The notes under the pieces were generated by a model. That model worked only from the letters and a program-made list of their open reading frames with translations. It had not been told where the DNA came from and did not search any database. The position numbers and the translations under genes were made by a program. 64,000 nt of DNA. Source: Pseudomonas floridensis (GTDB taxonomy: Bacteria; Pseudomonadota; Gammaproteobacteria; Pseudomonadales; Pseudomonadaceae). Below, in pieces: positions 1,222 through 42,342 of the stretch. The first letter of the stretch is position 1. Every line of letters begins with the position of its first letter. The DNA lies in contig NZ_MUIO01000012.1 of the NCBI RefSeq assembly GCF_002087235.1, forward strand, positions 62,001-126,000, given 5' to 3'.

Positions 1222-2535
1222 ATGTTCAATACCCGCTTGAAAAAGGAATTACAGGCTCAACAGGCCGAGTTGTCGGTTTTTCGGCAGATGCAGAAGGGTA
1301 TCGATGCCTGCATGGTGGGACTGGTACTTGATGCCAATAACCGCGTTGCTCACGCCAATGACAACTTTCTCAAGATGCTCGGCTACAGCAATGAGCAATT
1401 GGTAGGCAGGAATCTGGACGATCTGGTCCCGCCTTACGTCAAGCAGCTCGAGTGTTACCGAAACCTCAAGGCCGCCGTGCAGAAAGGCGAATCGGTCATC
1501 GACAATTACCGCTTTTTGCGCGCCGACGGCAGCCTGGCGTGGATACGGGCCATGTGGCAGCCGGTTCTCGATGAGACCGGCAAGTTGATGACGTTACAGT
1601 GCTATGGCTCCGACATCACCCAGACCGTCGAAACCGCCGCGGAAAACTCTGCCTTCATTCAGGCCTTGCTGCGCTCCACCGCAGTGATCGAGTTCGATCT
1701 GGGTGGGCATGTCCTGACGGCCAACGAACAGTTTCTGCGTGGGATGGGCTACAACCTGGGGCAGATCAGGGGCAAGCATCACAGCATGTTTTGCGACCCT
1801 CATGAGACGTCACAAACGGCATATAAGGATTTCTGGGCGACCCTGAACCGTGGCGAATTCGTTGCCAGCCGATTCAAGCGCGTTGACAGCAATGGCCGCG
1901 ATGTCTGGCTTGAGGCCACTTACAACCCGGTCCATGATGCCCAGGGCAAACTCTATAAGGTGGTCAAGTTCGCAACCGTGGTGACCGATCAGGTCGCTCG
2001 CGAAGAAGACGTCAGCCAGGCGGCAAGCGTGGCCTTCGAAATTTCCCAGCAGACAGACGTCAGCGCTCAGCGCGGTGCCGACGTGGTGCAGAACACCGTG
2101 CAGACCATGCGCAAGATTTCCCAGGAAATGGAATCGGCGTCATCCGGCATCGAAGCGCTGGGCAAGCAGTCGCTGCTGATCAGCTCCATTGTGCAGACCA
2201 TTGGCGGTATCGCCCAGCAGACCAACCTTCTGGCCCTCAACGCAGCCATCGAAGCGGCGCGTGCCGGCGAACAGGGCAGGGGCTTTGCGGTAGTGGCCGA
2301 TGAAGTGCGGCAACTGGCAGGCCGAACCAGCGCCGCCACCGAAGAGATCGTCAGTGTCGTGCAGCAGAACCAGGCACTGGCAGACGAGGCCGTACGTGGC
2401 ATGGCTAACAGCCGAACCCAGGCCGAACAGGGCTTGATGCTGGCTAACGAAGCCGGGTCGGTGATCGTCGAGATTCAGGAAGGGGCGAAACAGGTGGTGG
2501 GCGCGGTCGGGCGGTTTGCCAATCAGTTGAAGTAG
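1222..2535 (+). CDS. PAS-PAS methyl-accepting chemotaxis protein (soluble, BdlA/Aer-like)
   Basis: Cytoplasmic chemoreceptor of 437 residues with no transmembrane segment. A short helical start ([14 protein letters not shown]) is followed by PAS 1 at about residues 20-130, PAS 2 at about 135-255 and a short signalling domain at about 260-437. The latter carries the conserved hairpin tip [20 protein letters not shown], which binds CheA and CheW. The architecture is that of BdlA of P. aeruginosa (417 residues) and related energy or redox sensors; the ligand or cofactor cannot be told from sequence. I chose the ATG at 1222 over the in-frame ATG at 1183 because the earlier one lies inside a sigma-28-like -10 box and many Pseudomonas relatives begin MFN. 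There is no strong ribosome binding site. It stands alone, convergent with phoD. Confidence 0.88.
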
Positions 2536-2627
2536 TGGCGCAGTGTTTAGATCTTGCAACGCCGCTAAACGATAAGCCCCTTGTCTGCGGACAAAAGCGG
2601 GGGCGTTCACCGGGTTGGCGCAAAGCC

Positions 2628-4199
2628 CTAGACTTGCACCGCCCCGGTCTTTCCCGCGTCCACAACAAAGCGCTTGAGCGTCGATACGGTAGCCGCCGGG
2701 TCGAGCACGTCCGAGATCACTTGAAACCGTGTCTGCATCTGTCGCTCGCTCAGGTCCACCGATACATACCCGCGTTGACGGCTGTCGAAGAACTTGATGT
2801 GTGGGTTAAGCCCTAGTACCGAGTTGAAGGCTTCGAACGATGGTCCGCTGGAGGTCACCGAAGTGCCGACAAACTCGGTGGCGACGATTCTGGAGTCCGG
2901 ATTGTTGGCGTCGGCATGCAGGTCGGTGGTCCAGAATGAATGGATGTCTCCGCCCCAGAACACCGGGTTGCGGGTCTGATGACGCTCCAAGGAGGCCAGC
3001 ATGCGCTCGCGCGTTGCGATGTAGCCGTCCCAGCCGTCGGTCCAGCGGCCCAGTGCTTGAGTGTTCGGATTGCGCTGCGTCAGGGGCGCGACCAGCAGGT
3101 CCTGCGCGATGACATTCCATTGCCCTGGCGAGCGCGCAAAGCTGCGGTCCAGCCAGGTTTCCTGCTCCCAGCCGAGCATGGTGCGTTTCGGGTCGCGCAG
3201 GTCCGGGCAGTCATTACTCACGACGCGGCCTCCTCGGGTGACATTGGCCTGAAGGCAAGGTTGCTCGGAGCGGTACTGTCGACCGTCCAGCACGTTAAAA
3301 CGTGCCAGCCGTCCGTAGTCGAGATGTCGATAAATACGCATGTCAGCACCTTTTGGCAGACTGCTGGCGCGCAAGGGCATGTGCTCGTAAAACGCCTGGT
3401 AGGCGGCGGCTCTGCGACGCAGAAAGCTTCCTGTCGAGACGCGTGGATCCTGCGACCACTGGGCGGCGTAGTCATTCTGCACTTCATGATCATCCCAGGT
3501 GGCTACACATGGCGCGCAGGCATGCAGCGCCTGCAGGTCCGGGTCGGTCTTGTACTGGGCATAGCGGTTGCGGTATCCGGCCAGATCGATCGGTTCCGAC
3601 GTTAGATGACGGCGTGGAACATTGGCGTTTTGCGGAGCAACGCCTGACTCGTAAATGTAGTCGCCCAAAAAGAACACCAGGTCCGGACGCTCATTGGCCA
3701 GATGTCGGTACGCGCTGAAATACCCGGCCTCCCAGTGCGAGCAGGAAACGAACCCGAACCGGGCCGTTGGCATGGCTGCCAATGGCGGTAACGTGCAGGC
3801 TTGGCCTACCATGCTTTGCGCCCCCAGGCTTTCGAACTGATACCAGTAATGCCGACCGGGCTGCAAGCCGCTCACTTCCACATGCACCGAATGCGCAAAA
3901 CGCGGTTGAGCCGTGGCCTGCCCGGTGCGAACGATCCGGGTCATTGCCGCGTCGCTGGCAATTTTCCAGCGGACCGCCACTGGTTTGTGCAGACCGCCGT
4001 CACCCGGGGCGGTCGTCACCTGCGGGGCCAACCGGGTCCAGATCACGAAGCCATCCGGCAGCGGATCCCCGGATGCCACGCCCAGCGTGAACGGATAATC
4101 GACACCCGCACTGCGGGCAAACGGGCTGAGGATCGAGAACAGGGCGGCACCGGCCACACCGGTGATGATGCGACGACGATCCGGATCGAAATCAGTCAT
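2628..4199 (-). CDS. phoD: PhoD-family alkaline phosphatase, Tat-exported
   Basis: Secreted phosphomonoesterase/phosphodiesterase that releases phosphate from organic esters; the family uses Ca and Fe. The 523-residue protein begins with a twin-arginine signal (DPDRRRIITGVAGAALF), then a PhoD N-terminal domain (about 35-130, 'PFTLGVASGDPLPDGFVIWTRL'). The metallophosphatase domain contains SCSHWEAGYF, FFLGDYIYESG, TWDDHEVQNDY, LDGRQYR and WGGDIHSFW. These are the conserved metal and active-site segments of the family. It is divergent from the exbD-tonB operon, and a PHO-box-like site lies about 100 bp upstream. Induction under phosphate starvation is inferred from that and from family behaviour. 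Confidence 0.93.
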   Translation of the reverse strand: MTDFDPDRRRIITGVAGAALFSILSPFARSAGVDYPFTLGVASGDPLPDGFVIWTRLAPQVTTAPGDGGLHKPVAVRWKIASDAAMTRIVRTGQATAQPRFAHSVHVEVSGLQPGRHYWYQFESLGAQSMVGQACTLPPLAAMPTARFGFVSCSHWEAGYFSAYRHLANERPDLVFFLGDYIYESGVAPQNANVPRRHLTSEPIDLAGYRNRYAQYKTDPDLQALHACAPCVATWDDHEVQNDYAAQWSQDPRVSTGSFLRRRAAAYQAFYEHMPLRASSLPKGADMRIYRHLDYGRLARFNVLDGRQYRSEQPCLQANVTRGGRVVSNDCPDLRDPKRTMLGWEQETWLDRSFARSPGQWNVIAQDLLVAPLTQRNPNTQALGRWTDGWDGYIATRERMLASLERHQTRNPVFWGGDIHSFWTTDLHADANNPDSRIVATEFVGTSVTSSGPSFEAFNSVLGLNPHIKFFDSRQRGYVSVDLSERQMQTRFQVISDVLDPAATVSTLKRFVVDAGKTGAVQV

Positions 4200-33016: not shown

Positions 33017-33886
33017 CTACAGCGCCCGGTAACGCAGACTGAGCGTCAGCGTCATTGATTCCCCACGCTGTAACAGTTTCAACCCCGGATGCCCCGGCAG
33101 ATGATGGGCGTTGACCGGATGGCTGACCGGTTCGAAGCAGAAGAAGTCCAGACCCGGCGGGCAAAACACCAGAAAGTACTCACTGCCGCTGGCCTGGCAG
33201 TGCAGCTCATAGCCCAGGTCCGGCTGGCGGATGACGCTGCGGCCATCCCAGCCGGTGAAACCGTTGTCCAGCGTTGAGTGAGGCAAGGTGTTGCCGTGAC
33301 GGAAATCCCATTCGGCGGGCAGTTCCCGTAATTCGGAGGGCAGACCCGCTTCGTCGCACAGCCATACCTGCGTGGCGCTGGCCTTCAGGCGCGTGCCCGG
33401 CGTGCGCGGCAGATAAGGGTGCAGGCCCAGTCCGTGCCAGGCGGCGCGGCGGTCCAGATGGGTGGTGCGCAACTCGATGTTTAATTGGCCATCGATCAGC
33501 GTGTAACGCAACTGCGCCTGATAGACGAAGGGCGTCTGGCTGTCGAGTTGCAGGCAGACGTGCGTGTCGGTCTGTTCGATGACGTCCCACGGTTGTTGCC
33601 AGGCACTGCCGTGAATGGGCAGCGCATCGTTGGCGCTGTTGGGCGACAGGGCCAGCCAGCCCTCGGGCGTGTCGAAACCGCCGCTGCCGATGCGGTTTGA
33701 CCACGGCGCCAGCGGATACATCGCCAGTTTGCGAGGCGTACCGGCCGCCAGCGCGTCTTCATGACTGGGCCGCAGCAACGGCTGGCCGCTTTGCAGCACG
33801 GTCCAGTTGACGATACTGCCGCCGATGTCGGGTGCCAGGGTCAGCCGGGTCAGGCTGTCTTCAAGGGTCAGGACGTTCGCGGGCAT
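33017..33886 (-). CDS. aldose 1-epimerase family protein
   Basis: Galactose-mutarotase-like sugar epimerase, 289 residues. Conserved segments are 'MYPLAPWSNRIGSGGF', 'PIHGSAWQQPWDV' with the His, 'WHGLGLHPYLPR' and 'CPPGLDFFCFEPVSHPVNAH' with the catalytic Glu. Substrate not determinable. Its 5' end overlaps the 3' end of the EamA gene by 26 bases, and both may be distal members of the minus-strand uronate transport operon. A REP-like hairpin separates them from dctM. Confidence 0.88.
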   Translation of the reverse strand: MPANVLTLEDSLTRLTLAPDIGGSIVNWTVLQSGQPLLRPSHEDALAAGTPRKLAMYPLAPWSNRIGSGGFDTPEGWLALSPNSANDALPIHGSAWQQPWDVIEQTDTHVCLQLDSQTPFVYQAQLRYTLIDGQLNIELRTTHLDRRAAWHGLGLHPYLPRTPGTRLKASATQVWLCDEAGLPSELRELPAEWDFRHGNTLPHSTLDNGFTGWDGRSVIRQPDLGYELHCQASGSEYFLVFCPPGLDFFCFEPVSHPVNAHHLPGHPGLKLLQRGESMTLTLSLRYRAL

Positions 33887-34850
33887 GGTGCGTTACCTCT
33901 TCCGGACGCGATGAATGTGAGGGGCTGGAAGGCGAGAGCGGCGTGGCGCGACGCCAGGTCAACAGCACAATGCCACTGACCACGATCAACCCGCCGATGA
34001 CCTGGCCGCTGCTGAGCAACTGGTCCAGAATCAGCCAGCCAAACAACAGGCTGGCCACCGGCTCGATGTTCATGACCGGCGCGTTGCGGGCGATGTCCAG
34101 ACGCGCCATGCAGATGAACAGCAATGAGAAACCCACGCCGTACAGCAATACCAGACTGGCCAGCGCGGTCCAGCCGACGCGGCTGGCGGGCAGATCGACG
34201 CCGCCGGGCAACAGACCGCTGGCACCGGCCACGGCAGCGGCGATGAACACCACGACCATGGTCAACATGCTGCGCACGGTGCCACGCATGCTCGACAGCT
34301 TGTTGTCGGTGATCCATAGCGCGAAAGCAAACACCACGGCGGCGGTAAAGGCGTAGGCAATGCCTTCCAGCCACTGCGGCTCGCTGTTGCCGGGGTTGGA
34401 CAGCCGGTGCGGCACATCCAGCGCCAGCACCAGCCCGAACAGAATCAGGCCCATCAACGCAGCCGCCCGACGCGTGGGCGCAGCGCCGCCGAGCGCCCAG
34501 GTCAGCAGCGCCAGCAGGATCGGCGAGACGTTGACCACCAGCAACGCCAGCGCGACCGGAATGCGCGCCACGGCCGAGTAGATACAGAAACTCTGGGTCG
34601 CGATCAGCAGCCCCAGCAGCAATTGCCAGCGCCAGGTGCTGGCAGGCAGGTTGAGTCGTTCGCGCTGCAACAGCACCAGACTGACCAAAACCAACAGGGT
34701 CACGCCGGAGCGGCACAGAATGGCCAGCAGCAGGCCAGTGTCATGGTCGAAGGCAATGCGCGCGGCGATGTGGTTGCCGGCAAAGGAACAGGCCAGCAGC
34801 GCCAGTATCAGGACGGCGATGTGGCGGGGGAACAGGGCAGGGGCGGACAT
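33861..34850 (-). CDS. EamA/DMT-family transporter
   Basis: Inner-membrane exporter-like protein, 329 residues, with ten predicted hydrophobic helices in two EamA repeats ('LALLACSFAGNHIAARIAF' near the start, and the second repeat from about residue 170). Substrates in the family are varied metabolites. Its 3' end overlaps the epimerase gene by 26 bases. Confidence 0.85.
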   Translation of the reverse strand: MSAPALFPRHIAVLILALLACSFAGNHIAARIAFDHDTGLLLAILCRSGVTLLVLVSLVLLQRERLNLPASTWRWQLLLGLLIATQSFCIYSAVARIPVALALLVVNVSPILLALLTWALGGAAPTRRAAALMGLILFGLVLALDVPHRLSNPGNSEPQWLEGIAYAFTAAVVFAFALWITDNKLSSMRGTVRSMLTMVVVFIAAAVAGASGLLPGGVDLPASRVGWTALASLVLLYGVGFSLLFICMARLDIARNAPVMNIEPVASLLFGWLILDQLLSSGQVIGGLIVVSGIVLLTWRRATPLSPSSPSHSSRPEEVTHHARERPDP

Positions 34851-34940: not shown

Positions 34941-36221
34941 TTAAAGCACAGCGCCCGGCAGCCACAGCGAGATAGCCGGAATGTAGGTCACCAGCATCAG
35001 CACCATGAACAGTGCCAGATAGAACGGCAGCAGCGCTTTGACGGTGGCTTCGATGGTGACTTTGCCCACCGCAGCACCGACGAACAGCACCGCGCCGACC
35101 GGCGGCGTGATCAGGCCGATACCCAGGTTGACCAGCATGATCATGCCGAAGTGCACCGGATCGACACCGACGCTGGTGATCACCGGCAACAGGATCGGGG
35201 TGAGGATCAGGATCAGTGGTGCCATGTCCATGATGGTGCCCAGCAGCAGCAACATCACGTTGATGCACATCAGGATCACATAGCGGTTATCCGACAGGGT
35301 CAGAAACGCCGTGGTGATCTTCATCGGGATTTCCATCAGCGTCAGGATGTAACCGAAGCTGGCCGCAAAACCGATCAGGATCATCACGATGGAAATGGTC
35401 CGCGCCGCCCGGTGCATCAGCTTGGGCAGGTCGCGCCACTTATAGTCGCGGTAGATGAACATGGTCACGAAGAATGACCAGACCACGGCGATGGACGCCG
35501 ACTCGGTCGCGGTGAACACGCCGGACAGGATGCCGCCGAGAATGATCACCAGCGCCATCAGTCCCCACAATGCCTCGGCGGCGATCCTCAATGCCTGACG
35601 CATTGGGATCACTTCACCCTTGGGGTAGTTGCGCTTGCGGGCGAAGATCATGCACAGACCCATCATCACCGCGCTGAGCAGCAGGCCCGGCATGATCCCG
35701 GCCATGAACAGCGACGCGATGGACACCGTGCCGCCTGCGGCCAGCGAGTAAAGCACCGAGTTGTGGCTGGGCGGAGTCAGCAAAGCCTGCACCGAGCCGC
35801 TCACAGTCACGGCAGTGGAGAAGTCGCGAGGGTAGCCGTTGCGCTCCATTTCCGGGATCAGCACCGAACCCACTGATGCGGTGTCGGCCACCGAAGAACC
35901 CGAGATTGCGCCGAAGAACGTCGAAGCGACGATATTGACCAGCGACAGGCCGCCACGCACGAAGCCCACCAGCACCCCGGCAAAGGCCACCAGCCGTCGG
36001 GACATACCGCCTTCGGCCATGATGGCCCCGGCCAGCACGAAAAACGGAATCGCCAGCAGCGAGAATTTGTTCACCCCGCCTGCGATCTGGATCATCAGGG
36101 CATCGGCCGGAATCTCGATCCACCAAGCCCCGATCAGTGCCGACAGCCCCAGCGCATAAGCCACCGGCATGCCGAGAAGGATCAGCCCTATGAAGCTGCC
36201 CAACAGTATCAATGCGTCCAT
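34941..36221 (-). CDS. dctM: TRAP transporter large permease DctM
   Basis: Large membrane subunit of a tripartite sodium-coupled transporter, 426 residues, about twelve hydrophobic helices. Family segments are 'GMPVAYALGLSALIGAWW', 'FVLAGAIMAEGGMSRRLV', 'GAISGSSVADTASVGSVLIPEM' and 'LGIGLITPPVGAVLFVGAAVG'. It begins immediately after the dctQ stop. Context with Udh and the lactonase points to hexuronate uptake. Confidence 0.94.
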   Translation of the reverse strand: MDALILLGSFIGLILLGMPVAYALGLSALIGAWWIEIPADALMIQIAGGVNKFSLLAIPFFVLAGAIMAEGGMSRRLVAFAGVLVGFVRGGLSLVNIVASTFFGAISGSSVADTASVGSVLIPEMERNGYPRDFSTAVTVSGSVQALLTPPSHNSVLYSLAAGGTVSIASLFMAGIMPGLLLSAVMMGLCMIFARKRNYPKGEVIPMRQALRIAAEALWGLMALVIILGGILSGVFTATESASIAVVWSFFVTMFIYRDYKWRDLPKLMHRAARTISIVMILIGFAASFGYILTLMEIPMKITTAFLTLSDNRYVILMCINVMLLLLGTIMDMAPLILILTPILLPVITSVGVDPVHFGMIMLVNLGIGLITPPVGAVLFVGAAVGKVTIEATVKALLPFYLALFMVLMLVTYIPAISLWLPGAVL

Positions 36222-36749
36222 TTATGCGGCACCTTCGCTTTCTTCAATGACGTCGAACCGCATGACGGAGCGGTGACTCTGGTCACCCAGGAACATCCTT
36301 TCCAGTACGAAAATCAGGGTCACGATGCCGCCGATGGGGATTGGCAGGTACGAGATGCCCACGCGCAGGCCCGGCAGTTCGCCGAGGAACTGGTTCCAGG
36401 TGGTGGCGCACAGCTTGAAACCCTTGAAGATCATGAACAGCGCGACAATGGCCATCAGGACCTGTACGGCCACGCTGGCCACTTTGCGCAACTGCACCGG
36501 CATGCGATCCACCGCCATGGAAACGGCCATGTGCGCGCCTGCGCGATAACTGGCTGCCGCGCCGAAGAAGGTGAATACCACCATCAACAGAATGGCCACC
36601 GGTTCCGGCCAACTGGAGCCGCTGCCCAGTACGTAACGGGCGAAGATGCCCCAAGGAATGATCAGGGTCATGGTCAGTACCGACAGACCGGCAATGCCGA
36701 TACAACCCCGATAAAGCGTGTCGTTGAGGCGCAATAACGTATTTTTCAT
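36222..36749 (-). CDS. dctQ: TRAP transporter small permease DctQ
   Basis: Four-helix small membrane subunit, 175 residues, linking binding protein and large permease. 'WPEPVAILLMVVFTFFGAAASYRAGAH' and 'RVGISYLPIPIGGIVTLIFVLE' are typical DctQ segments. It abuts dctM with no gap and follows dctP after about 60 bases that can fold into a GC-rich hairpin, a common arrangement that lets dctP be made in excess. Confidence 0.92.
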   Translation of the reverse strand: MKNTLLRLNDTLYRGCIGIAGLSVLTMTLIIPWGIFARYVLGSGSSWPEPVAILLMVVFTFFGAAASYRAGAHMAVSMAVDRMPVQLRKVASVAVQVLMAIVALFMIFKGFKLCATTWNQFLGELPGLRVGISYLPIPIGGIVTLIFVLERMFLGDQSHRSVMRFDVIEESEGAA

Positions 36750-36812: not shown

Positions 36813-37835
36813 TTATTGGGCTGCCTGGGTTTTCGCGACCAGGGCGGGATCGGTCTGGACCGCTTCGATACGGCTGATCAGATCCTTATAAGGCGCGCCG
36901 TACTTGTCGCGCACCGGCTGGGTCGCGTCATAGAAGGCTTTTTTCTGCTCAGGCGTCAGGGTGATGAATTCCACACCCGCAGCCTTGAGCTTGGCCTCGT
37001 CAGCGGCCGACGCCTTGTCCCACAGGGCGCGTTCTTCCAGCTGCGCTTCGCGTGCCACTTTCTTCACCAGCGCCTGTTGCTCTGCAGACAGCTTGTTCCA
37101 GGTGGTTTTGGCCATCACCACCGGCTCTGGCAGGATCAGGTGCTCGGTCATGGTGTAGAACTTGGCGTTCTGGTAGTGGTTGTGCTGGAAGTAGGTCGGC
37201 GGGTTGTTTTCCGCGCCATCGATCACGCCAGTCTGCAGGGCGCTGAAAATCTCCCCGGTAGCCATGGCGATGCCGTTGCCGCCCATGTCGTTGATGGTGT
37301 CGATGAACACCGGGTTGCCCTGGACGCGAATCTTCATGCCCTTGAGGTCGGCGATGCTGCGCACCGGCTTCTTGGTGTAAAGGTTGCGCGTGCCGCCGTC
37401 CATCCAGGCCAGTGCGACCATGTTGAAGTTGGAGTTGCTGATCTTGTCGAGCATCTCCTGGCCGATTTCACCGTCGATGATGGTGCGCATGTGTGCCTGG
37501 TCGCGGAACACGAACGGCAGGTTGAAGGCGTTGACGTCCGGCACGACCGGCCCGACGATCCCGAGGCTGACGCGGGTCATCTGGATGGCGCCGGACTGCA
37601 CCTGCTCGACGACTTCCTTTTCAGAGCCCAGCACGCCACCGGCGAACATCTTGAAGCTGATCTCGCCCTTGCTTTGTTCTTCCAGCTTTTTGCCCATGTT
37701 CTGCTCGGCCACCACGGGTGGGTAGCCGGCAGGGTGCACTTCGGCGAACTTGATTCTGACGTCCGCCTGGGCCAGGCCTGCCATGCAGAACGCGAGCGGA
37801 AGTGCAGCGGTGAGGAGTGTGCGTTTGAAGTCCAT
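36813..37835 (-). CDS. dctP: TRAP transporter substrate-binding protein DctP
   Basis: Periplasmic solute-binding protein of 340 residues. A signal peptide (MDFKRTLLTAALPLAFCMAG, cleavage near LAQA) precedes the DctP fold with 'FAEVHPAGYPPVVAEQNMGK', 'VSLGIVGPVVPDVNAFNLPFVF' and 'NLYTKKPVRSIADLKGMKIRVQ', where an Arg (KIRVQ) binds the substrate carboxylate. Galacturonate/glucuronate as ligand is inferred from the adjoining uronate dehydrogenase. Confidence 0.93.
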   Translation of the reverse strand: MDFKRTLLTAALPLAFCMAGLAQADVRIKFAEVHPAGYPPVVAEQNMGKKLEEQSKGEISFKMFAGGVLGSEKEVVEQVQSGAIQMTRVSLGIVGPVVPDVNAFNLPFVFRDQAHMRTIIDGEIGQEMLDKISNSNFNMVALAWMDGGTRNLYTKKPVRSIADLKGMKIRVQGNPVFIDTINDMGGNGIAMATGEIFSALQTGVIDGAENNPPTYFQHNHYQNAKFYTMTEHLILPEPVVMAKTTWNKLSAEQQALVKKVAREAQLEERALWDKASAADEAKLKAAGVEFITLTPEQKKAFYDATQPVRDKYGAPYKDLISRIEAVQTDPALVAKTQAAQ

Positions 37836-37891: not shown

Positions 37892-38776
37892 TCAGTCCCG
37901 GAACTGTGGCTCCTCCAGGCCTTTGACGCCGGGTCGCAAGGCGAACACACCACCGGCGAGTGGCTGATCGCTCAGGTCGCCACCAGGGCGGATCGACGTC
38001 ACGAACAGGGTGTCCAGGTTCGGGCCGCCGAAAGCGCACATGGCAGGTTTTTTTACGGGCACGACCAGCGAACGGTCAAGCTTGCCCTGTGGGGTGAAAC
38101 GGTGGATCAGACCGGCGTCGTTGCCGCAGATCCAGTAACAGCCGTCGGTGTCGATGGCTGCACCATCCGGGCGCCCCAGATGATGGTTCATGTCCACGAA
38201 CAGGCGGCGGTTGTGGGGTGTGCCGCTGTCGGTGTCGTAATCGAACGCCCAGATCTTCTGCACGCTGGGGTGCGAGTCGGACAGGTACATGGTCTTGCCG
38301 TCCGGGCTGAACGCCAGGCCGTTGGGCACGATGAAATCCTTGAGCACTGGTTCCAGTGTCTCTTGCCCGGCGCTGTAGCGATACATCGCGCCGACCACTG
38401 CGCCAGCGTTCATGTCCATCAGCATGGTGCCGGCCCAGAAACGACCCTGACGGTCACAACGACCATCATTGAAGCGCATGCCGGATTGAGCATGCTGCAC
38501 GTCGACCAGCGGCGTGCTGCTCAGGGTTTCACCTTCGCCGGGGTGCAGGTGGAACAGGCCGCTTTCCATACCGGCGACCCAGCCACCTTTGCCGTCGGCC
38601 GCGATGCAGGCCAGCATCTGCGGGGCTTTCCAGTGGCGGGTACTGCCATCGCCCGGGTTCCAGCAATGCAGATGACCTGCGGGGATGTCCACCCAGTAAA
38701 GCGCTTGGTCACGCGCGCTCCAGACAGGGCTTTCACCGGTGGCGTTCTGTGCATCGAGAATCAGTTCGGCATCCAT
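37892..38776 (-). CDS. SMP-30/gluconolactonase-family sugar lactonase
   Basis: Six-bladed beta-propeller lactonase of 294 residues. It has 'GESPVWSARDQALYWVDIPAG' with the metal-binding Glu, 'RFNDGRCDRQGRFWAGTM', 'PNGLAFSPDGKTMYLSDS' and 'GRPDGAAIDTDGCYWICG' with metal-binding Asn and Asp. In the uronate oxidation pathway it would open the aldaro-lactone made by Udh to galactarate or glucarate. It lies 45 bases downstream of udh. Confidence 0.9.
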   Translation of the reverse strand: MDAELILDAQNATGESPVWSARDQALYWVDIPAGHLHCWNPGDGSTRHWKAPQMLACIAADGKGGWVAGMESGLFHLHPGEGETLSSTPLVDVQHAQSGMRFNDGRCDRQGRFWAGTMLMDMNAGAVVGAMYRYSAGQETLEPVLKDFIVPNGLAFSPDGKTMYLSDSHPSVQKIWAFDYDTDSGTPHNRRLFVDMNHHLGRPDGAAIDTDGCYWICGNDAGLIHRFTPQGKLDRSLVVPVKKPAMCAFGGPNLDTLFVTSIRPGGDLSDQPLAGGVFALRPGVKGLEEPQFRD

Positions 38777-38821
38777 GGCGGCGAGTGTCTCCAGGGCTGT
38801 TCAGAAAGGGTTGAGCAATGC

Positions 38822-39649
38822 TTACTCGTCGCCGAACGGCCCGGACGCCACGAAAGCGCCGCCCTGATAGACCATCGCCGGGTCATCGGCGGCCGGCATT
38901 GGCTGGGCTTCGACTTTGTCGCGAAACACTTCCGAACTGTCCTTGGGGGTGTAGCCCAGATGGCTGGCCAGACGGTTGTCCCACCACACGGTCTTGTTGT
39001 CCGAGACGCCGTAAACCACGGTGTGGCCGACGTTCGGCGTGTACAGGGAGCGCTCGAGCAATTGGGTCAGGTCGTCGAAGCTGAGCCAGGTGCTCATCAT
39101 TCTGCGGTTCTGCGGTTCTGGAAACGAAGAGCCGATGCGGATGCTGACGGTTTCGATGCCGTAGCGATCGAAGTAAAAGCTGGCCATGTCCTCGCCGTAG
39201 GATTTGGACAGACCGTAATAGCTGTCCGGACGGCGCGGCGAGTGCGCGTCGATGGTCTCGTCCTGCTTGTAGAAACCGATCACGTGGTTGGAACTGGCGA
39301 AAATTACGCGCTTGACGCCATGACGGCGGGCAGCTTCGTAAATGTGGAAAACGCCGCAGATGTTGGCACCGAGGATTTCTTCGAAGGGACGCTCAACCGA
39401 CACGCCGCCGAAATGCAGAATCGCGTCCACGCCTTCTACCAGGCGATGAACGGCGTCCTTGTCGGAGAGATCACAGATCTGGATTTCTTCATGGCTGCCT
39501 GCCGCCGGTGCCATCTCGGCGATATCGGACAGCCGCAGGATGTTTGCATAAGGGCGCAGGGTTTCGCGCAGTACCTTGCCCAGGCCACCTGCCGCGCCTG
39601 TCAGCAGGAGGCGATTGAAGGGAGTTTGGGGGGTGTGAGCCGATGCCAT
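38822..39649 (-). CDS. udh: uronate dehydrogenase
   Basis: NAD-dependent oxidation of D-galacturonate or D-glucuronate to the aldarolactone. 275 residues with Rossmann loop 'LLLTGAAGGLGKVLRE', 'ICDLSDKDAV', 'ILHFGGVSVERPFEEIL', the SSNHVIGFY segment and catalytic 'YYGLSKSYGED' (YxxxK). The enzyme of this type was purified and studied from P. syringae, and the sequence closely fits what I recall of it. First gene of a minus-strand operon (udh, lactonase, dctP, dctQ, dctM), preceded by a clear regulated promoter. Confidence 0.95.
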   Translation of the reverse strand: MASAHTPQTPFNRLLLTGAAGGLGKVLRETLRPYANILRLSDIAEMAPAAGSHEEIQICDLSDKDAVHRLVEGVDAILHFGGVSVERPFEEILGANICGVFHIYEAARRHGVKRVIFASSNHVIGFYKQDETIDAHSPRRPDSYYGLSKSYGEDMASFYFDRYGIETVSIRIGSSFPEPQNRRMMSTWLSFDDLTQLLERSLYTPNVGHTVVYGVSDNKTVWWDNRLASHLGYTPKDSSEVFRDKVEAQPMPAADDPAMVYQGGAFVASGPFGDE

Positions 39650-39681
39650 GGGGACGCTTCCTGATTGTTATTTTTTGTCAT

Positions 39682-39733
39682 CTGTTGTCGTATGACTTGC
39701 CTGATTATCGGCACCGCATACGCTGATTGTCAA
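39682..39733 (-). promoter_or_regulatory. udh promoter with operator at the start site
   Basis: Minus strand: -35 TTGACA (39733-39728), 18-base spacer, -10 GATAAT (39709-39704). Overlapping the start point is the operator-like GTCATACGACAAC (39696-39684 on the minus strand), flanked by a further ATGAC. The layout repeats almost base for base upstream of oprD (41403-41453), so a shared repressor, probably a GntR-family uronate regulator, is likely. Confidence 0.7.
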
Positions 39734-39828
39734 CGCGGCCAAGGTATAAAGTCGTCGCTGCGCGAGCCGCTGCTTAGACGCCTCAACGCGACCGGGCTCA
39801 CGCTGAAAAATGAGCCCGGTGCGCTGCT

Positions 39829-41097
39829 TCAGAGCAACGAAAGCGGGTAGCTGATGAAGATCCGGTTTTCATCGAATTCGTTGGTGCTGAAGTCGCGACG
39901 CAGGCTTGAATTGCGCCACTTGACGTTCAGGTTCTTGAACGTGCCGCTTTGTATGGTGTAAGCCAGTTCAGACTCGCGCCCCCATTCCTTGCCGTCGGTG
40001 ATGTTGCCGGTGTGCACGTTGTCGCCGCTGATGTAACGGTTCATCAGGGTCAGGCCGGGCACGCCCAACACGGCAAAATTATAGTCGTGACGCAACTGCC
40101 AGGATTTTTCCTTGGCGTTATCGTAGCTGGAGTTATAGCTGTCGTTGGCCAGCGTGCCACCACTGGTGCCGTTGACGCGCATCCAGGCGGTGTCGCCGCT
40201 GAGTTTCTGCAGACCGACGTAAAAGGTGCTGCCGCCGTAACGAGCCGACAGCAACGCGTAGGCGGTCTTGTTGTCCAGATCGCCGGCCAGCTTGTTGCCG
40301 TCCTCTTTGCCGATGAAGTAGCCCAGGTTGGCGCCGAGGGTCCAGTCGCCGAACGTCTGGGTGTGCAGCAGATTGAAGAACTGCTGCTGGTAGATGTCCT
40401 GCAGTTCCGAGTACCAGACGCCTACTTGCGTACGTTTTTCATTGAACACGTACTCACCACCGCCGAAGTTGAAACGGTCCGAGGTGAAGGCCCCGCGACC
40501 GTTCATCGACATGTCTTCCATGCTGGCGTCGTTGCGCGGGCTGTTGCCGCGGAACTGGCCGCCGTACAGCGTCAGGCCGTCGATTTCCTTGGAGGTGATC
40601 TGCCCGCCCTGGAAGGTTTGCGGCAGTGAGCGACCGTCATCGGAACGCAGTATCGGCAGTACCGGCATCCATTCGCCGACCTTGAGTTCGGTCTTCGAGA
40701 CGCGTGCCTTGCCCGCCACGCCCAGACGACCGAAGTCATCCGCCGGACGACCATCGCTGTGGATCGGCAGCAACTGCGTGCCGCCGGTGCCGCGCCCGCC
40801 GTCCAGCTTGATTGAATACAGCCCCAGCACATCGACACCGAAACCGACGGTGCCCTGCGTGAAGCCGGACTTGGCGTCGAGGATGAAGTTCTGCGTCCAC
40901 TCTTCGGCTTTGCCCTGCGGCGCAGCGCTGCTGGGATAGGCCGGGTTGGTGAAGTTACGGTTGAAGTAGGCGTTGCGCAGCGTGAGTGTGGCTTTGGTGT
41001 CGTCCACAAAACCTTCTGCCATGCCGAGCATCGGGCAGAGCAGCGTCATGCTGCCCACGCCCATAAGGACGCGTGAACGGGTGGTGTGAGATGTCAT
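39829..41097 (-). CDS. OprD-family outer-membrane porin
   Basis: Substrate-specific porin of 422 residues, 18-strand barrel. A signal peptide (to about residue 27, 'MLGMAEGFVDD') is followed by 'LTLRNAYFNRNF' and 'AEEWTQNFILDAKSGFTQGTVGFGVDVLG', the usual opening of OprD barrels; the C-terminus lacks a terminal Phe but ends in hydrophobic YPLSLL. I use the ATG at 41097; upstream in-frame starts would put extra residues before the signal peptide. The promoter matching that of udh suggests it admits uronic acids or their oligomers. Confidence 0.9.
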   Translation of the reverse strand: MTSHTTRSRVLMGVGSMTLLCPMLGMAEGFVDDTKATLTLRNAYFNRNFTNPAYPSSAAPQGKAEEWTQNFILDAKSGFTQGTVGFGVDVLGLYSIKLDGGRGTGGTQLLPIHSDGRPADDFGRLGVAGKARVSKTELKVGEWMPVLPILRSDDGRSLPQTFQGGQITSKEIDGLTLYGGQFRGNSPRNDASMEDMSMNGRGAFTSDRFNFGGGEYVFNEKRTQVGVWYSELQDIYQQQFFNLLHTQTFGDWTLGANLGYFIGKEDGNKLAGDLDNKTAYALLSARYGGSTFYVGLQKLSGDTAWMRVNGTSGGTLANDSYNSSYDNAKEKSWQLRHDYNFAVLGVPGLTLMNRYISGDNVHTGNITDGKEWGRESELAYTIQSGTFKNLNVKWRNSSLRRDFSTNEFDENRIFISYPLSLL

Positions 41098-41402
41098 TGT
41101 TATTAAGCTCCCTTGCTTGACGAAACTGTCCCTCTTTCTCTGACTGTGCGCAGGCAACAGCCGACAACTGCGAGGATTATGTGATGCCTGTTCAAGGCAT
41201 GATCCCGACCGAAATGCAGCCGGATACCGTTCGCTGGCGATCAGCGAGCGCTATAAAACACGAGTGTCATCGGGTGTTGCGAAAGGACTGCTCCCTGCCG
41301 CGGCGACGGCGATCCAGGGCGTAACGCAAGGTAAGACGGATGTGCAGACGAAGGTCTTCATCGGATGGGCCTCAGCATTGTTTTTATTGTTTTGGCGTCA
41401 TA

Positions 41403-41453
41403 GGTTGTCGTACAACCGCGCTGATTATTTACAGGCTGCGTAAGGTTTGTCAA
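41403..41453 (-). promoter_or_regulatory. oprD promoter with palindromic operator
   Basis: Minus strand: -35 TTGACA (41453-41448), 18-base spacer, -10 AATAAT (41429-41424). The transcription start region is covered by the palindrome GGTTGTCGTACAACC (41403-41417; arms GGTTGT/ACAACC). Spacing of all elements equals that at udh. A leader of about 320 bases to the porin gene follows; I see no gene in it. The divergent SDR gene may share the operator. Confidence 0.7.
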
Positions 41454-41577
41454 CGCGCGTTTGGTCGAAGATTTGCCATTCTGACGGGCCTTGAAAGGCC
41501 GTGCATGAATGAGAGTGAACGCTGGCACGGGCTGCACAGTCCACCAGACACGTATTCACTTTTCAGGAGCGCATTAC

Positions 41578-42342
41578 ATGAATCGTTTCACCGAAAAAGT
41601 CGTGTTGGTCACAGGAGCCGGTTCCGGCATCGGCGAAGCCACGGCCAAGCGTTTTGCCCGGGAAGGCGCCAAGGTCGTACTGGTTGGCCGCAATGAAGAA
41701 AAGCTGAACAAGGTGGTCGCGCAACTGGAAGGCGAGGGGCATCTGGTGCGCGCCACGGATGTCGCCGACCTCAGCGACGTCGAGGCGCTTTTCAAGCAAG
41801 TGGCCAGTCAGTTCGGCCGACTGGACGTACTGGTCAACAACGCCGGTATCGTGAAGTCCGGCAAGGTCACCGAGCTTGAAGTGCAGGACTGGAAAGAGCT
41901 GATGTCGGTGGACCTGGACGGCGTGTTCTATTGCACTCGCACCGCCATGCCTGCATTGATCGCCAGCAAGGGCAATATCGTCAACGTATCGTCGGTGTCC
42001 GGTCTGGGCGGCGATTGGGGCATGAGTTTCTACAACGCGGCCAAGGGCGCAATCACCAACTTCACCCGAGCGCTGGCGATGGATCACGGCGCTGACGGTG
42101 TTCGCGTCAACGCAGTGTGCCCTTCGCTGACGCGCAGTGAACTGACCGAAGACATGCTCGATAACCAGGCGCTGATGGCCAAGTTCAAGGAGCGTATCGC
42201 GCTGGGCCGTGCTGCCGAGCCGGAAGACATCGGCGACGTGATTGCCTTCCTGGCCAGTGACGATGCGCGTTTCGTGACCGGCGTCAATCTGCCGGTGGAC
42301 GGCGGCCTTTCGGCCTCCAATGGTCAGCCACCGCAGGCCTGA
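41578..42342 (+). CDS. short-chain dehydrogenase/reductase
   Basis: Classical SDR of 254 residues: cofactor loop 'TGAGSGIGEATAKRF', 'NNAG', catalytic Ser in 'VNVSSVSGLGGDWG', 'YNAAKGAITN' (YxxxK) and the C-terminal 'DDARFVTGVNLPVDGG'. The ATG at 41578 has CAGGAG upstream. The substrate is unknown; its place beside the uronate genes and the shared operator region suggest a sugar-acid step, which is inference. Confidence 0.88.
   Translation: MNRFTEKVVLVTGAGSGIGEATAKRFAREGAKVVLVGRNEEKLNKVVAQLEGEGHLVRATDVADLSDVEALFKQVASQFGRLDVLVNNAGIVKSGKVTELEVQDWKELMSVDLDGVFYCTRTAMPALIASKGNIVNVSSVSGLGGDWGMSFYNAAKGAITNFTRALAMDHGADGVRVNAVCPSLTRSELTEDMLDNQALMAKFKERIALGRAAEPEDIGDVIAFLASDDARFVTGVNLPVDGGLSASNGQPPQA

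Follow-up and report, generated by a model that had tools for sequence, protein, structure and literature searches.

Two genes of a Pseudomonas floridensis uronate cluster, udh for a uronate dehydrogenase and oprD for an outer-membrane porin, stand behind promoters so alike that they raise the question of whether a single regulator governs both. We examined this question in a stretch of 64,000 nucleotides that contains both genes (hereafter, the window), in the rest of the genome, and in collections of related loci and genomes.

Two promoter-operator modules in a uronate cluster

The cluster was read on the minus strand. The gene of the oprD-family porin (39829..41097; PF03573, 513.7 bits) is followed by udh (38822..39649), whose product matches the solved uronate dehydrogenases 6mfh (3.5e-95) and 3rft (8.5e-85), and by the gene of an SMP-30-family lactonase (37892..38776; PF08450), of the PSPTO_1052/PP_1170 type by context. 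Next come the genes of a TRAP importer, namely the substrate-binding protein DctP (36813..37835; Pfam, NCBIfam and the solved relative 4xfe), the small permease DctQ (36222..36749; PF04290) and the large permease DctM (34941..36221; TIGR00786, above cut-off). Pfam, NCBIfam and comparison with proteins of solved structure bear out the identities of porin, uronate dehydrogenase, lactonase and TRAP importer. For the binding protein, the best match among solved structures is 4xfe, described simply as a TRAP dicarboxylate transporter subunit; the ligand of 4xfe is glucuronate. By their neighbourhood, genes for an EamA-family transporter (33861..34850; PF00892) and an aldose-1-epimerase-like protein (33017..33886; PF01263), also on the minus strand, form a possible operon tail. 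Many of the loci described below (the best 80 of 308) have an aldose-1-epimerase-like gene close to the udh cluster, and the product of this gene may be a uronate mutarotase.

Both promoters are of the sigma-70 type and are likewise on the minus strand, TTGACA-18-AATAAT for oprD (41424..41453) and TTGACA-18-GATAAT for udh (39704..39733), with the same operator 7 nt further on; both were found by sequence check and promoter scan, and the promoter pattern also stands ahead of the operator in other oprD loci. The preliminary description of this DNA had reported these two modules, and they proved to lie where it put them, base for base: GGTTGTCGTACAACC occupies 41403-41417 and CTGTTGTCGTATGAC 39682-39696, and the minus-strand operator cores read GTTGTACGACAAC for oprD (41416..41404) and GTCATACGACAAC for udh (39696..39684). 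The flanking blocks that it held to be common to both modules were also recovered, the two regions aligning as CGCGTTGACAA...ATAATCAG...TACGACAAC..ATGAC. In a 10-kb promoter scan these two were the sole promoter-like matches, each at 11/12; the number of matches at a threshold of at least 9/12 was no higher in those 10 kb than in shuffles (2 vs a mean of 2.3), so the promoter pattern by itself proves nothing.

The 15-base palindrome of the preliminary description could be refined, since a third half-site, AYRAC, follows 2 bp beyond it. The operator is thus 20 bp long and has three half-sites, GTYRT-ACG-AYRAC-NN-AYRAC; exact minus-strand copies precede oprD (GTTGTACGACAACCTATGAC, 41397..41416) and udh (GTCATACGACAACAGATGAC, 39677..39696). 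Its conservation was followed at udh relatives from named genomes, of which the best 80 of 308 were taken; each of the 80 carries the label Pseudomonas, and two of these loci (L058 and L060) are two places on one contig. In 80/80 of the loci GT[CT][AG]TACGAC[AG]AC followed by NN-A[CT][AG]AC was found upstream of udh, with TTGACA ahead of it. The promoter spacer measured 18 in 75 loci and 17 in the other 5, and 7-11 nt separated the -10 box from the operator; CGCG preceded the -35 box in 70 of the 80. The full 20-bp operator was present before oprD in all 62 assessable loci from the same best 80 of 308. This count starts from 63 loci with a porin of more than 70% identity, from which one (L091) was excluded as its porin is cut at the locus end, and the 17 loci without a porin match above 70% stand outside it.

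It had also been suggested that the divergent SDR gene next to oprD may belong to the same regulon, which the analysis did not support. The product of this gene (window 41578-42342) matches the meso-2,3-butanediol dehydrogenase equivalog (395 bits vs a cut-off of 270), the gene adjoins oprD in just 12 of the 80 loci (best 80 of 308), and the promoter scan gave no promoter-like site facing the SDR gene in the interval between it and oprD. It lies probably outside the regulon; judged by position, an effect on it from the operator, 160 bp ahead of its start, is conceivable.

The operator in its genome, genus and class

A genome scan for the palindrome had been suggested as a check. The 13-base core alone was too weak for this: it has 7 exact copies in the genome vs about 3 expected by base counting, and its one-mismatch sites (52 of the 59 matches listed) fell below a reversed control of 298. 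The exact copies of the refined 20-mer all stand ahead of pathway genes. Over 6.10 Mb GTYRTACGAYRACNNAYRAC is matched exactly at 3 places, vs about 0.01 expected by base counting, and the reversed pattern at none; the copies stand before udh, before oprD and, at C24:21968, ahead of the kdgD-MFS-garD galactarate operon, in which kdgD (TIGR03249) and the galactarate dehydratase gene garD (TIGR03248) exceed their NCBIfam equivalog cut-offs. A weaker second operator (L108 9839-9858, equal to C24:21838-21857) precedes that of kdgD by 130 bp, and the two are a possible looping pair.

When 3 mismatches were allowed in the 20-mer, matches in the genome were rarer than those of the reversed control (35+35 vs 93+112); since mismatched sites fall below the reversed control, weak sites are no evidence. 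Three places of this kind, C13, C46 and C9, are suggestive only as members of the regulon. A one-mismatch copy of the 20-mer at C13:22989 precedes an aldehyde dehydrogenase gene; the product reached only 101.8 of 770 bits with the GucD model and was rejected on that score as a ketoglutarate-semialdehyde dehydrogenase, an identity that the gene context makes plausible. Around another one-mismatch copy, at C46:2103, no pathway gene was recognised. A pair of sites at C9:62514 and 62638 stands ahead of the gene of an MFS sugar-acid transporter, the second directly after TTGACA-17-TATAAA.

Among 199 Pseudomonas genomes the exact 20-bp operator occurred in 154 and the reversed control in 1 (G064). 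In a class-wide sample of 274 genomes it occurred in the P. floridensis genome only, and the reversed pattern in 2. We read 29 further loci, taking a single operator site from each genome. Of these sites, 24 face into udh (9), kdgD (10) or oprD (5), three into MFS transporter genes whose products are 82, 81 and 31% identical to transporters of our genome, and two adjoin kdgD or an MFS gene and face away from it. A udh gene was found in 139 of the 199 genomes, 138 of which also have the operator; the exception, G025, has a distant udh only. Of the 60 genomes without udh (40 being so counted as the complement of the listed matches), 16 still carry the operator, which in the two that were read (G047 and G079) stands before kdgD.

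The CA motif and the long oprD leader

Between the operator and the start of udh lies a CA motif (AANAANAA; 39665..39676, minus strand), and an A-rich CA motif of the same type follows the oprD operator (41376..41393, minus strand). Among the 80 udh leaders (best 80 of 308) the motif followed the operator in 70, vs 3.8 expected in shuffles, and in 62/62 oprD loci it stood no more than 40 nt beyond the operator; the shuffle control covers the udh leaders. CA motifs of the AANAANAA type are the recognition motif of Hfq-Crc. The udh motif lies near the translation start, as in an Hfq-Crc target, and the oprD motif of the window, a candidate Hfq-Crc site, is near the operator and a small open reading frame, far from the start of oprD. 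These motifs suggest an extra layer of control by Hfq-Crc.

By the distance from the operator to the oprD start the loci form two groups, a short one of 37 (87-106 nt) and a long one of 25 (289-336 nt), the window being in the latter. In the short leaders that were printed, an in-frame GTG with a Shine-Dalgarno sequence lies closer to the operator (L072 was checked by eye), so the true leader of the 37 loci is shorter still. The long leader of the window carries a small upstream open reading frame of 36 codons (41251..41361, minus strand), the ATG of which is found at the equivalent place, 48-56 nt from the operator start, in 26/26 long leaders. It is followed by four predicted hairpins (41108..41248, minus strand) that end at the oprD Shine-Dalgarno sequence.

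The fold was derived from the last 141 nt of the leader in 13 syringae-type sequences, with 96.5% of cells paired. Double-sided changes were seen in 8 of 38 pairs, vs 4.3 in shuffles, of which 3/500 reached 8, and 0-3 in slid versions; the covariation score was 0.246 vs 0.184 for shuffles (reached in 0/500), as computed on the same alignment from which the structure was derived. The number of further pair types was not above that of shuffles (143/500). A second group of 9 leaders has a similar layout, with double changes in 7 of 44 pairs, and the RNA model of the first group, R1, finds this group poorly; L055 and L066 lack the conserved hairpins. Applied to all 12 long-leader loci beyond the 13 used in training, R1 found L039 (E 1e-10), L105 (0.002), L040 (0.015) and L049 (0.085), and the search also gave one antisense match in a training locus. 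As an RNA spread beyond the syringae type R1 was rejected, with matches in 2 of 59 genomes, our own and G056, one copy each. Rfam 15, run on window 38700-42000 with E up to 5, gave no match to the oprD leader; its sole match falls short of the gathering score and is separated from the leader by the operator.

The long oprD leader of about 320 nt, restricted to P. syringae-type loci and marked by its conserved small reading frame and covarying hairpins, is possibly new, and one might guess that it acts by attenuation or translational coupling. We would put forward only tentatively, as a reading with the balance against it, that uronate uptake of the syringae type is under three levels of control: a genus-wide GntR operator with three half-sites, set apart by its ACG centre from the ATG-centred sites of paralogous sugar-acid regulons; an Hfq-Crc CA motif; and, at oprD alone, a cis-acting leader RNA of small reading frame and four hairpins that would tune porin synthesis once initiation has taken place. 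If functional, the leader would represent an undescribed control of a porin after the start of transcription.

The candidate regulator and known systems

The gene at C24:20940-21686, which is not part of the window and lies 353 bp ahead of kdgD, encodes a protein with PF00392 (76.4 bits, cut-off 27) and PF07729 (88.2 bits, cut-off 24.3), that is, the winged helix and FCD domain of an FCD-type (FadR-like) GntR regulator, of which the genome encodes 19 with an FCD domain. An ortholog with 82-89% identity adjoins the udh cluster in 8 of the 80 loci (best 80 of 308). This survey used 15 of the 19 regulators as queries, and three of the queries (L014, L020 and L024) look like wrong frames; regulator neighbours of other types could therefore be missed. 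A homolog at E<=1e-60, a threshold that mixes orthologs and paralogs and gives 4 matches in our own genome, was found in 168 of the 199 Pseudomonas genomes. All 31 genomes without one (11 being so counted as the complement of the listed matches) lack the operator, and 154 of the 168 with one have it (Fisher p 9e-26, ignoring kinship); in the remaining 14, which lack the exact operator, the best matches were about 1e-114 to 1e-120 in 13 and 5e-134 in G015. The distance of about 80 kb between the regulator gene and udh in our genome counts against a link between the two. A related palindrome precedes the regulator gene in 7/7 readable udh-linked loci, as GTCATCGTACAAC in 6 and GTGATCGTACAAC in 1, and our own regulator gene is preceded by GTGATCATACAAC, which departs from the consensus. 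This last site has no third half-site. The place of the palindromes before the regulator gene suggests autoregulation.

The presence of the same operator before the galactarate operon and the genus-wide co-occurrence of the regulator homolog lend computational support to the central proposal of the preliminary description, one regulator for udh and oprD, which on this evidence is likely right. Its assignment of that regulator to the GntR family agrees with the GntR/FCD gene at the galactarate operon that bears the same operator, and joint control of outer-membrane uptake by OprD, inner-membrane uptake by the TRAP importer and oxidation is likewise supported computationally. The best candidate for the protein that reads the operator is most likely the kdgD-linked FCD protein. 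We thus consider it highly probable that both modules are the window's members of one hexuronate/aldarate regulon under a kdgD-linked FCD-type GntR repressor. The modules, their conservation, their contexts and the co-occurrence of the regulator were observed directly, whereas we infer binding, the sign of control and the ligand.

Under such control, a sigma-70 promoter of the form TTGACA-18-NATANT would drive transcription, and the 20-bp operator, beginning 7-11 nt after the -10 box, would extend over the start site, where the bound FCD-type GntR repressor would block initiation. A pathway acid, for example galactarate or glucarate, would release the repressor and so open OprD, the TRAP importer, uronate dehydrogenase, lactonase and the galactarate pathway together. 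To judge from the motif, the mRNAs are probably also subject to catabolite repression by Hfq-Crc, through the CA element that follows the operator.

The operator might instead be read by a paralogous FCD regulator, either the gudD-linked one at C35 or one of a pair at C57. These paralogs are 54-57% identical to the kdgD-linked regulator, with a near-identical recognition helix, and their neighbourhoods hold related sites, CTTGTATGATGACCGACAAT at MFS-gudD and GTTGTATGACGACATAC at the gene of an enolase-family dehydratase, the latter behind TTGACA-18-AATACT. The paralog sites, however, are centred on ATG and those of udh, oprD and kdgD on ACG, a central triplet that may separate the paralogous regulons. 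At E<=1e-100 the gudD-linked paralog occurs in only 44 and the C57-linked one in only 16 of the 199 genomes, vs 154 for the operator, and each was rejected as the general regulator on its count (these counts cover two of three paralogs, the third being L014); moreover, the regulator that adjoins udh in the 8 loci is of the kdgD-linked type. A paralogous reader is therefore improbable. In their own surroundings, the MFS-gudD operon (L186 1345 and 1395-4149, at C35) has the related site CTTGTATGATGACCGACAAT and an FCD regulator of its own nearby, and C57 (L152 4255-13342) holds two adjacent FCD regulators near a porin gene, ABC transporter genes and the enolase-family dehydratase gene, which has its own module of TTGACA-18-AATACT and GTTGTATGACGAC. 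The C57 porin presumably resembles KdgM.

A still slimmer chance is that the regulator is an activator and the operator position a coincidence. The sign of control is indeed taken here from position, but in 80/80 udh loci (best 80 of 308) a near-consensus promoter stands before the operator, and a protein bound 7-11 nt past the -10 box would block initiation. It is scarcely credible that the modules are alike only because a promoter segment was recently duplicated, with no control in common: they do align from the -35 flank through the CA motif, yet the operator is kept at every udh (best 80 of 308) and every assessable oprD locus despite diverging spacers and flanks, and it recurs at the unlinked kdgD.

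If control by the kdgD-linked repressor is confirmed, the operator pattern would offer a handle on the use of pectin-derived uronic acids by plant-associated pseudomonads, from the outer membrane to 2-oxoglutarate, with a candidate regulator named for work on the operator and a substrate context for a porin of the OprD family.

The enzymes are those of the Pseudomonas oxidative uronate pathway (PP_1170/PP_1171, PSPTO_1052). In P. putida KT2440, the lactonase and uronate dehydrogenase PP_1170/PP_1171 are needed on glucuronate and galacturonate, in a description that, in its available part, leaves regulation aside (PMC9007349); UxuL and UxuF are named lactonases in the available part of PMC6353982. 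The literature searched, which omits most subscription journals, gave no paper on this Pseudomonas operator. The likeness of AANAANAA after the udh and oprD operators to Hfq-Crc CA-motif control is one of motif. ExuR and UxuR, enterobacterial FCD-type GntR repressors of hexuronate genes, belong to the same superfamily as the kdgD-linked regulator; unlike theirs, the enzymes controlled here belong to an oxidative pathway, and the regulator scored 99.5 bits for ExuR (cut-off 396) and 87.9 for the Uxu regulator (442). The closer parallel is GguR, for which the main paper is reportedly that of Bouvier et al. As far as the available part of its description goes, GguR belongs to the GntR family and controls galactarate/glucarate genes; in one Halomonas its regulon also holds Udh, later lactone enzymes and UxuPQM (PMC5507952). 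Here, too, a GntR-family regulator is encoded with galactarate/glucarate genes, upstream of kdgD, MFS and garD, and udh, the lactone step and a TRAP importer would be under its control through an operator common to udh, oprD and kdgD. The likeness is by description, not by sequence or motif: OprD, the third half-site and the leader RNA do not figure in that part of the GguR description, and the exact Pseudomonas 20-mer is found in 0/273 other genomes of the class. By this analogy, the regulon most probably belongs to a Pseudomonas branch of GguR-type regulation.
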